Origin: an uncultured bacterium | GTDB taxonomy: Bacteria; Armatimonadota; HRBIN16 | Assembly: GCA_937132045.1 (NCBI GenBank) | Contig: CAKZNX010000427.1 | Span: 1-32,306 of the forward strand | DNA length: 32,306 nt | Direction: 5' to 3' | Shown here: one piece after another, positions 127-16,690 of the stretch | How the letters are laid out: each line of letters starts with the position of its first letter | Numbering within the stretch: position 1 is the first letter of the stretch | The notes under the pieces: model-generated | Database searches by the model: none | What the model was told of the DNA's origin: nothing | The model's input: only the letters and a program-made list of their open reading frames with translations | Translations under genes and position numbers: made by a program

Positions 127-155
127 TTGATTTTCCCAGCAATATTTGTTAGAAT
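127..155 (+). promoter_or_regulatory. Sigma70-type promoter TTGATT-N17-TAGAAT
   Basis: TTGATT at 127-132, 17-nt spacer, TAGAAT at 150-155, upstream of the small ORF at 322. Confidence 0.6.
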
Positions 156-321
156 ACGAGAAGATTAGCAAACTGAGGGTTTTCTTTCTTTTCTGGTTCA
201 TTTCTGGTTCGCCAAAGCAAAGGGGTACCGACTGCAGACGCAACATGGGGACAGTCGCGCAGCACGTCCTCAGGTGCTGGTCATGCTACAGCGTAAGTGC
301 TAACGAGGGGGGACACCAGCA

Positions 322-531
322 ATGTGGCAGCGACCGGAAAATGATCAGTTTGCAGAGGAGCTCTTCCTGGCGGGAGAGCGTGTAGCTCCAGGCGTTTACC
401 GACAGGTAGGCAGCGACCGTGTTATTCGATTAGAAAAAGAAGATGTTCTGCCTGCGAGCTGTGACGGTCACGTTGCTTGTTATGTGCGCATCCAGAACTT
501 GTGGTCGCAGATTCAGGCAATGCGGATGTAG
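322..531 (+). CDS. Small conserved-looking protein of unknown function (69 aa)
   Basis: ATG preceded by GAGGGGGG (305-312, spacing 9); flanked by a promoter and a strong terminator; even codon composition. Confidence 0.65.
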   Translation: MWQRPENDQFAEELFLAGERVAPGVYRQVGSDRVIRLEKEDVLPASCDGHVACYVRIQNLWSQIQAMRM

Positions 532-548
532 AACGGAATAACGGACTG

Positions 549-579
549 AGAGCCGACGGTGACGACCGTCGGCTCTTTT
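549..579 (+). terminator. Rho-independent terminator, probably bidirectional (also 3' of accA)
   Basis: AGAGCCGACGGT-GACG-ACCGTCGGCTCT followed by TTT: 12-bp perfect stem and 4-nt loop. Confidence 0.9.
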
Positions 580-580
580 G

Positions 581-1543
581 CTACATTGTGGCGACGCTCC
601 ACATGCCCAGATTACGATACCGCTCGTAGCGGCTCTCGCGCAGCTTGCTGACGGACAACCTCTGCAGAGCCGGGAGATGTCTGTGCAAAGCCTCCTTCAC
701 GATTTGTGCTGCCGCCAGAGGGTCGCGGTGCGCTCCACCCAGTGGCTCCTCGATTACCTCGTCTACCACGCCAAAGCGGAGCGCATCGTGCGCGGTCAGT
801 TTCAGTGCCTCGGCGGCTTCGGGCGCCCGTTTCGGGTCACGCCACAAAATAGCCGCACACCCTTCCGGCGGGATGACGGAGTAGATGGCATATTCCTGCA
901 TCAGCACACGGTCAGCCACGGCGATACCCAGAGCACCGCCACTTCCTCCTTCACCAATCACGACCGACACGATGGGCACCTTCAACGAAATCATCTCGCG
1001 CAGGTTGCGGGCGATTGCCTCGCTGATACCCCGGCTTTCCGATTCCACACCGGGGTCTGCCGCAGGAGTGTCCACAAAGGTGATAACCGGTCGTCCGAAC
1101 TTTTCTGCCAGATGCATCAATCGGAGCGCCTTGCGATAGCCCTCGGGCTTCGCCATCCCGAAATTGCGCCGCTGTCGCTCTTTCAGGTCGCGCCCTTTCT
1201 GCTGACCGATTACCATCACCGGTTTGTCGTTCAGCCAAGCCATACCGCCGATAATCGCCCCATCGTCGCCGAACTGGCGGTCGCCGTGCAGTTCCACGAA
1301 GTCGTCGAAGATAACGCGGATATAGTCCAGCGTGTAAGGGCGCTGGGGATGCCGCGCCAGCAGGGTGCGGTCCCAGGGCGTCAGGTTGCGGAAGATCTCG
1401 CGCAACAGTCTTTCCCTGTCCCTCTCCAGCGCGGCGATCTCCTCGCTTTTGTCGATGCCCTGCTCTGCTGTGAGGCGTTTTAGCGCTTCGATATTGGCAT
1501 CCAGCTCGGCAATCGGTTTCTCGAAGTCCAAAACAGTCCGCAC
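581..1543 (-). CDS. accA: Acetyl-CoA carboxylase carboxyltransferase subunit alpha
   Basis: 320 aa; FDDFVELHGDRQFGDD, GEGGSGGALGIAVADRVLM and YSVIPPEGCAAILW motifs; adjacent accD. Confidence 0.97.
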   Translation of the reverse strand: MRTVLDFEKPIAELDANIEALKRLTAEQGIDKSEEIAALERDRERLLREIFRNLTPWDRTLLARHPQRPYTLDYIRVIFDDFVELHGDRQFGDDGAIIGGMAWLNDKPVMVIGQQKGRDLKERQRRNFGMAKPEGYRKALRLMHLAEKFGRPVITFVDTPAADPGVESESRGISEAIARNLREMISLKVPIVSVVIGEGGSGGALGIAVADRVLMQEYAIYSVIPPEGCAAILWRDPKRAPEAAEALKLTAHDALRFGVVDEVIEEPLGGAHRDPLAAAQIVKEALHRHLPALQRLSVSKLRESRYERYRNLGMWSVATM

Positions 1544-2382: not shown

Positions 2383-2469
2383 GCGTCTGTTCCTCCACGT
2401 CGGCAGGATTATACCCGCCTCAGGCAGAAATCTGCGCCTACAAAATCACTGCGCAGGGGTGATGCGCTC

Positions 2470-3531
2470 GTGACCTTGCACGACCTCCGTAAAGAGATTG
2501 ACCAGATCGATGAGCAAATCCTGCACCTGCTGACCCGGCGGGCGGAGCTGGCACAGCAAATCGGCAGGATGAAGATGCGTTCGCGCACACAGTTCTTCAC
2601 ACCCGAACGCGAACAGCAGATATACCGTCGCCTGATACAGATTAACCGCGGTCCTCTGACCAACGAGCAGCTCCGTGCGATATTCCGTGAGATTATCTCC
2701 GCGGCGCGTGCGCTGGAGAAACCGCTGGTCATCGCCTACTGGGGACCTCCGGGCACGTTCAGCCACCAGGCGGGCGTGACCAAGTTTGGCTCCAGCAGTG
2801 AGTTTGTGCCTGTGGACTCCATTCAGGATGTGTTCCACGAGGTGGAACGATCCAGCGCCGATTACGGCATTGTGCCTGTGGAGAACTCTACTGCGGGCGT
2901 CATCCCCGAGACGCTCGACCTGTTCATGCAGACGAACCTCAAAATCTGCTCGGAGCTGTATGTGCCGATTGTATACTATCTGGTGTCGCAGACCGCGCTG
3001 GAGAAGGTGAAGCGGGTCTACGCGGGCGCACAGCCGCGTGAGCAGTGCAAGCAATGGCTGCGCCAGCATCTGCCGGGCATCGAGATTGTGGAGGTCTCCA
3101 CCACCGCGCGTGCGGCAGAGATGGCGAAGGAGGATCCCGACTCGGCGGCGGTGACCAACGCGCTCGCTGCGCAGATGTACGAGGTGCCGATTATCTGCGA
3201 ACACATCGAGGACAACCCGCACAACCGCACGCGCTTCCTCGTTATCGGCTACAACGAACCCGAGCCCACCGGCAAAGACAAGACCTCCCTCATGTTCTCG
3301 GTACAGCACCGACCGGGCGCACTCTTCCGCGCCATGGCTGCCTTCGAGATGTACAACGTGAACATGACGATGATCGAAAGCCGCCCGACCAAGCTGGTTC
3401 CCGGCGAGTACATCTTCTACGTGGATGTGCAGGGACACATTAAAGACGCCGCTGTGGCGAAGGCGCTGGCTGTCCTGCGTGAGCGCAGCCTGTTTGTGAC
3501 CGTTCTCGGCTCATATCCCGAGGCGGAATAG
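2470..3531 (+). CDS. pheA: Bifunctional chorismate mutase / prephenate dehydratase
   Basis: LRKEIDQIDEQILHLLTRRAELAQQIG chorismate mutase domain, then a PDT domain (YWGPPGTFSHQA, NRTRFLVIG) and a C-terminal ACT domain (ESRPTKLVPGEYIFYVD). GTG start chosen within the longer ORF 1930-3531, with AGGGGTGA upstream. Confidence 0.95.
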   Translation: MTLHDLRKEIDQIDEQILHLLTRRAELAQQIGRMKMRSRTQFFTPEREQQIYRRLIQINRGPLTNEQLRAIFREIISAARALEKPLVIAYWGPPGTFSHQAGVTKFGSSSEFVPVDSIQDVFHEVERSSADYGIVPVENSTAGVIPETLDLFMQTNLKICSELYVPIVYYLVSQTALEKVKRVYAGAQPREQCKQWLRQHLPGIEIVEVSTTARAAEMAKEDPDSAAVTNALAAQMYEVPIICEHIEDNPHNRTRFLVIGYNEPEPTGKDKTSLMFSVQHRPGALFRAMAAFEMYNVNMTMIESRPTKLVPGEYIFYVDVQGHIKDAAVAKALAVLRERSLFVTVLGSYPEAE

Positions 3532-16298: not shown

Positions 16299-16503
16299 GT
16301 GTCATTGCGAACCTGCCTTCGGGCAGGGGACGCAATCGCCTGCGCCTTGCGCTAGTTGAAGAGGATTGCTTCGTCGCTGCGCTCCTCGCAATGACACGGG
16401 TCAGGTGTCATTGCGAGCCTGCCTTCAGGCAGCGGAGCAATCGCCTGCGCCTTGCGGTAGTTGAAGGGGGTTGCCTCGTCGCTGCGCTGCTCGCAATGAC
16501 ATA
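16299..16503. repeat. Two long repeat units, GTGTCATTGCGA...TCGCAATGACAY
   Basis: Unit A1 16299-16397 and unit A2 16405-16501 both begin GTGTCATTGCGARCCTGCCTTCRGGCAG and end TCGCAATGACAY. Confidence 0.9.
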
Positions 16504-16690
16504 AGGGTTGAGGGGGATTGCTTCGTCGCTGCGCTCCGCGCAACGACACGAGGGTTGAGGGGGATTGCTTCGTCGCTGCGCTGCTCGCAATGACACGAGG
16601 GCGAGGGCGATTGCTTCGTCGCTGCGCTGCTCGCAATGACACGAGGGTTGAGGGGGATTGCTTCGTCGCTGCGCTGCTCGCAATGACACG
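16504..16690. repeat. Tandem array, four units of 46-47 bp
   Basis: AGGGTTGAGGGGGATTGCTTCGTCGCTGCGCTGCTCGCAATGACACG at 16504-16550, 16551-16597, 16598-16643, 16644-16690; units 2 and 4 are identical. Confidence 0.95.

Follow-up and report, generated by a model that had tools for sequence, protein, structure and literature searches.

The window, a 32,306-nucleotide stretch of DNA, is contig C427 in the draft genome (3.5 Mb) of a hot-spring bacterium, an HRbin16-like member of the Armatimonadota. Members of the class HRBIN16 rank with the most active Armatimonadota in hot-spring mats at 60 °C (PMC11788075). The comparison set comprised ten genomes of the class, all belonging to one genus and including this genome, and a phylum set of 291 genomes; bacterium HRbin16 and a 'Chthonomonadia bacterium' are among the close relatives with named records. 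Near the start of the window a small gene lies on the plus strand; accA and an accD-like carboxyltransferase gene are convergent to it. The following features were annotated:

127..155, plus strand: promoter TTGATT-N17-TAGAAT with TG before the -10 (consensus scan; kept in 10/10 genus genomes)
162..321, plus strand: predicted 5' leader of ~160 nt (start site inferred from the -10)
305..312, plus strand: Shine-Dalgarno GAGGGGGG (read directly; conserved in 10/10)
322..531, plus strand: 69-aa ORF of an unnamed Armatimonadota protein family (ATG at 322; no Pfam match)
549..580, plus strand: intrinsic terminator (hairpin and conservation), probably common to the convergent accA
581-1543, minus strand: accA, convergent to the small gene

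The -35 hexamer TTGATT (127-132) and the -10 hexamer TAGAAT (150-155) are separated by a 17-nt spacer, with TG upstream of the -10, and all ten genus genomes keep the pattern TTGA[CT]T-N17-TA[CG]AAT. Leader length ranges from 142 to 171 nt across these genomes, counted to the ATG from a start 7 nt past the -10. The terminator consists of a 12-bp hairpin (549-560/565-576) followed by TTTT; its stem is kept with compensatory changes (GCCGACGG/CCGTCGGC versus GCCGGCGG/CCGCCGGC) and its RNAalifold z-score is about -6. Lying between convergent genes, it may serve both the small gene and accA. No terminator-like site was found between the promoter and the ORF. The promoter, the leader of about 160 nt, the 69-aa ORF with a good ribosome-binding site (RBS) and the 12-bp terminator had been described in an earlier note on this DNA; all lie where it placed them, and the promoter-leader-gene-terminator unit is conserved in all ten genomes of the genus.

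Two further observations were made in the window. A 330-aa ORF (2446-3438, minus strand) adjoins the accD-like gene and has no Pfam match. A 33-nt imperfect palindromic repeat (GATTGCTTCGTCGCTGCGCTCCTCGCAATGACA and variants) is present in 8 copies in the window, at sites that include 14-46, 55-86 and 16365-16688, and in 374 copies in the genome (≤3 mismatches), often in short arrays with a spacing of ~47 or 55 nt.

The ORF is a real, conserved and undescribed small protein, as the earlier note had supposed. Members of its family occur in 10/10 genus genomes and in 38 of the 291 phylum genomes, the same 38/291 being recovered by a profile search, with up to three copies per genome. Protein identity is 91-99% inside the genus and 32-69% in the 28 genomes of other Armatimonadota families, and the core motif reads LFLAGERVxPGxYRQVGxxREVRLExEDxLPASLDGRVACY. 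The 69-aa sequence has no match in Pfam at E≤10 and none in a PDB sequence search, so that a cold-shock domain of the CspA family was found by neither route. An AlphaFold2 model of modest confidence (pLDDT 74) is small and mostly beta with a C-terminal helix; Foldseek gave no fold match to it above noise (best E 0.58). Residues 42-66 (445-519, LPASCDGHVACYVRI) weakly and recurrently resemble part of Legionella AnkH/LegA3 or of an ankyrin-repeat protein, as seen in three libraries with E-values of 0.018, 1.6 and 0.3, which is too weak for functional inference.

Within the genus, the mean pairwise identity of the leader at 236-321 is 88%; for the four-fold degenerate sites in the ORF it is 80%, and at 160-200 it drops to 50%. 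The conserved block has a sharp onset at TTCCGGTTCGC. Four genomes (G001, G004, G005 and G006) carry indels of 1-2 nt inside it, so its conservation is not maintained through a common reading frame. Alignment and folding delimited the following RNA features:

202..341, plus strand: conserved structured RNA element that extends 20 nt into the coding sequence (alignment, alifold, covariance model)
202..212, plus strand: P1 5' arm TTCYGGTTCGC, a conserved island within a poorly conserved stretch
224..228, plus strand: P2 lower 5' arm (GGRRC in relatives), pairing with 266-270; purine variation opposite U
232..239, plus strand: P2 upper 5' arm CUGC-AGAC, pairing with 254-262; 98.8% paired, nearly invariant
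246..252, plus strand: P2alt 5' arm UGGGGAC, pairing with 266-272 in 10/10 genomes
266..272, plus strand: hub segment GUCCUCA (GUUCCCA in relatives), pairing with P2 224-228, P2alt 246-252 or Shine-Dalgarno 309-314
275..281, plus strand: P3 5' arm TGCTGGT; 92.9% of cells paired with 315-321
284..291, plus strand: P4 5' arm UGCUACAG (UGCUGCAU in relatives), able to pair with the start region 322-329; 96% of cells paired
315..321, plus strand: P3 3' arm ACCAGCA, abutting the ATG (pair conservation)
330..339, plus strand: P1 3' arm GCGACCGGAA, within codons 3-6; 99% of cells paired, U-G-compatible changes

For 202-341, RNAalifold on the ten genus sequences gave -39.9 kcal/mol, compared with -27.6 ± 3.6 kcal/mol when columns were shuffled within conservation classes (z -3.46), and none of 300 shuffles reached the observed value. 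By this measure structure near the RBS is conserved beyond chance, moderately so against coding controls: 140-nt windows over the accA/accD region mostly fell between z -1.7 and +1.8, but a single window, on the sense strand, reached -3.3. The signal is good but not overwhelming, because the controls include that last window. A 140-nt slice of the leader cut slightly differently reached a z of only -2.5 (60 shuffles). In this genome alone the leader folds no better than shuffles (z -0.88), which means that the structure signal arises solely from comparison. Covariation is thin, since only ten close sequences exist: one or two pairs show changes on both sides, and 40-181 of 500 shuffles reach as many. 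Together, the alignment and the consensus fold support conservation of the leader as a probable structured RNA around the RBS.

A covariance model recovered the element in 10/10 genus genomes (E≤6e-28) but in none of the 281 remaining phylum genomes. The leaders of distant homologues gave no convincing match to it (best 14 bits, E 0.2). Two relatives from another family (L033 and L035) carry their own unrelated conserved stretch of ~80 nt 5' of the homologous ORF, possibly a different leader element. Searched against Rfam, the leader has no match at gathering score and just a meaningless partial U6 at E≤10; thus no known cis-regulatory family (riboswitches, thermometers, leaders) was matched by covariance model.

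The consensus domain is closed by P1 (202-212 with 330-339), a helix of ten pairs with one bulged U in which 99% of cells are paired and all departures but one are G-U compatible. Absent from the earlier note, P1 joins the leader to codons 3-6 and encloses both the RBS and the start codon. Codons 3-5 never vary at the third position, and in codon 6 no change occurs except one that gives a G-U pair, whereas codons 7-12 all vary. This codon pattern is only suggestive of P1, because codons 13-19 are mostly invariant as well; elsewhere in the ORF third positions are invariant at 24 of 63. The arm duplex of P1 is equalled by 2-6% of shuffled arms.

These last two figures, like the single-genome z-score and the accA/accD window at -3.3, favour an ordinary 5' UTR, in which recent ancestry, a good RBS and promoter-proximal constraints would account for the similarity and the helices would be chance products of a G+C-rich leader. 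However, the leader is more conserved than four-fold sites, the 5' arm of P1 stays invariant where the stretch around it has diverged, and all 300 shuffles fold less well than the exact element. We consider an ordinary leader possible, though doubtful on this balance.

Inside P1, the first hairpin P2 (224-228 and 232-239 with 254-270) has 98-99% of its cells paired. In this genome its lower arm needs a bulge and is disfavoured (+8.5 kcal/mol in the nascent leader of the window). The second hairpin, P3, pairs TGCTGGT (275-281) with ACCAGCA (315-321). It is one of the two helices proposed in the earlier note, which had set the RBS in its closed loop, and it withstood comparison: 6 or 7 of its 7 pairs are kept in 9/10 genomes (93% of cells paired), with G-U-tolerant changes in one. 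It is lost in G005, whose P3 region has diverged (L004:1384-1520) and which prefers another fold; there the Shine-Dalgarno is predicted to pair with the hub segment instead (P ~0.43 at 37 °C). In the predicted ensemble of this genome itself, P3 is absent at 37 °C and P1 is low in longer context.

The other proposed helix, CAGCAC (260-265) with GTGCTG (274-279), is not conserved. All four short segments of the two helices are exact in this genome; in the alignment, however, just 80% of the cells of the first helix are paired, compensatory changes are absent and the closing pair is broken in 6/10 genomes. Since this helix also has a pairing probability of ~0.05 or less in every genome, we rejected it. 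Comparison across the genus thus upheld the conservation of one helix and not of the other, and with one of two unconserved the pair alone amounts to weak evidence.

Alternatives to the consensus hairpins were also surveyed. P2alt (246-252 with 266-272) has 100% of cells paired, and this genome shows a compensatory A-U to G-C change and a G-C to G-U change in it; changes on both sides affect at most two pairs in this survey, a number that 40/500 shuffles reach. The hub segment that P2 and P2alt share is also complementary to the Shine-Dalgarno (309-314) in 10/10 genomes. For the nascent leader up to position 273 at 37 °C, P2 and P2alt are predicted to lie within ~2.5 kcal/mol of each other in 7/10 genomes; as exceptions, this genome and G005 favour P2alt and G006 favours P2. 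P4 (284-291 with 322-329) lacks informative covariation and belongs to the predicted ensemble of this genome. P3 and P4 together are forbidden by geometry, their 3' arms being adjacent (315-321/322-329) and their 5' arms joined by 2 nt. A kissing interaction between 257-263 and 285-291 was discarded: 91% of cells are paired, but it is broken by this genome's own changes and has no covariation. Chance alone can also produce G-U-tolerant complementarities within 100 nt, and no alternative pairing has strong covariation of its own. Mutually exclusive folds at the translation start do exist, as the earlier note had proposed, but between other partners, namely P2 versus P2alt and P3 versus P4.

Opening the region from -15 to +15 of the start is predicted to cost 17.3 kcal/mol at 37 °C, the second highest value among 17 starts examined in the window. 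Shuffled flanks equal this cost in 23 of 150 cases, and the Shine-Dalgarno itself is predicted to be mostly just half paired.

Taken together, we propose that 202-341 is a cis-acting translational control element of the stand-alone 69-aa gene, a reading to which we assign a probability of roughly 0.6. The domain would be closed by P1, the long helix of the 5' part of the leader with codons 3-6. Inside it would form either P2 or P2alt as the first hairpin, and P3 as the second, its loop holding the Shine-Dalgarno and its 3' strand touching the start codon. Since the hub could pair with 224-228, 246-252 or the Shine-Dalgarno, and 284-291 with the start codon, the leader might move between arrangements accessible and inaccessible to the ribosome. 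Such refolding would set translation initiation rather than transcription; control at initiation appears most likely because the domain takes in both the Shine-Dalgarno and the start codon and nothing resembling a terminator comes before the ORF. The proposal draws on the observed conservation of sequence and of pairs, on the consensus fold and on the isolation of the unit. From these we infer that the folds interconvert in the cell, with an effect on translation and a trigger that may be temperature, a ligand, a protein or an RNA. Of the translational switch put forward in the earlier note, the structured RNA around the RBS stands; switching would be between partners other than the two helices it set against each other.

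Counting against translational control are the thin covariation, the weaker z-score of the alternative slice, the accA/accD control at -3.3 and the loss of P3 in G005. Folding predictions also weigh against it, to the extent that the ensemble of this genome lacks P3, the Shine-Dalgarno is half paired and shuffled flanks can match the opening cost. The element is best described as a plausible candidate, found in only one genus. The weights that we give to the individual readings overlap with the general statement of control and are not meant to sum to one.

The element may work like translational leaders such as that of cspA or like RBS-masking riboswitches, as a candidate structured regulatory mRNA leader. 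In E. coli cspA, a leader of ~160 nt precedes a protein of ~70 aa and forms mutually exclusive folds, which are reported to control RBS access. The likeness is one of working, a long structured leader before a protein of ~70 aa; there is no sequence or family relation, the protein is different, and any temperature response here would be that of a thermophile. E. coli cspA mRNA has been described as carrying a cis thermosensor (PMC9947658). A cspA- or ROSE-type RNA thermometer, in which temperature alone shifts P2/P3 versus P2alt and thereby RBS access, would suit a class with hot-spring members active at 60 °C (PMC11788075). The predicted consensus fold has P2 at 37-55 °C but P2alt at 65 °C, opening the RBS costs 14-21 kcal/mol at 37 °C and only 8-12 kcal/mol at 65 °C, and the ~160-nt leader, the ~70-aa product and the structure reaching into the coding region recall cspA. 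However, all RNA melts with heat; the predicted change is gradual, with no shared sharp transition, and the shift to P2alt at 65 °C is not uniform among genomes. Nor was the protein found to resemble any cold-shock or heat-shock family, and no Rfam thermometer matched. We regard a thermometer as unlikely.

Autogenous control, with the 69-aa protein or another protein binding the leader and repressing translation, ranks below it and is quite unlikely. As in the leaders of ribosomal protein operons, the structure spans the RBS and start and is restricted to one gene unit, here monocistronic, and the product is small and predicted to be mostly beta. Unlike those systems, the 69-aa protein is no detected ribosomal protein or known RNA binder by family or fold, and no Rfam ribosomal protein leader matched; moreover, relatives outside the genus have the protein without this leader, so a protein-RNA pairing would not be general.

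Improbable in turn is a metabolite or ion riboswitch, in which the invariant loops 240-253 and 281-293 of the P1-closed multi-branch domain would bind a ligand. The compact junction, with its two hairpins and loops of nearly invariant sequence, resembles translational riboswitches of the SAM-II and preQ1 types, which likewise have a P1-closed domain, the RBS in a helix or loop and no terminator. It differs in having no Rfam match at E≤10 and no ligand, to which the gene offers no clue, in a P1 that uses coding sequence, and in standing before one gene in one genus only, which is unusual for a metabolite riboswitch.

More speculative still is a specific form of the proposed translational control, in which decoys of the Shine-Dalgarno (246-252) and of the start region (257-263) would compete with the true RBS for 266-272 and 284-291, giving thermophilic Armatimonadota a lineage-specific switch that is closed by a helix with codons 3-6 of the controlled gene. 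A coding leader, either an upstream ORF or an N-terminal extension of the 69-aa ORF, is excluded for practical purposes by indels and stops: the ORF frame is open into the leader in most relatives and an in-frame ATG at 283 is open into the ORF in several, but stops close the frame just upstream in this genome (G000) and in G004, the 1-2-nt indels in G001, G004, G005 and G006 shift leader frames relative to each other, and the strong Shine-Dalgarno fits ATG 322 only.

Regulatory RNAs of the Armatimonadota appear to be little studied, judging from the literature searched, where no paper was found that joined 'Armatimonadetes' and 'riboswitch'. Should translational control prove false, the case would show how readily one sequence yields attractive, unconserved helices. 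If confirmed, it would provide a genus-specific translational control element governing an undescribed family present in 38/291 genomes of the phylum, within a stable promoter-leader-gene-terminator unit that could easily be transplanted into a reporter.
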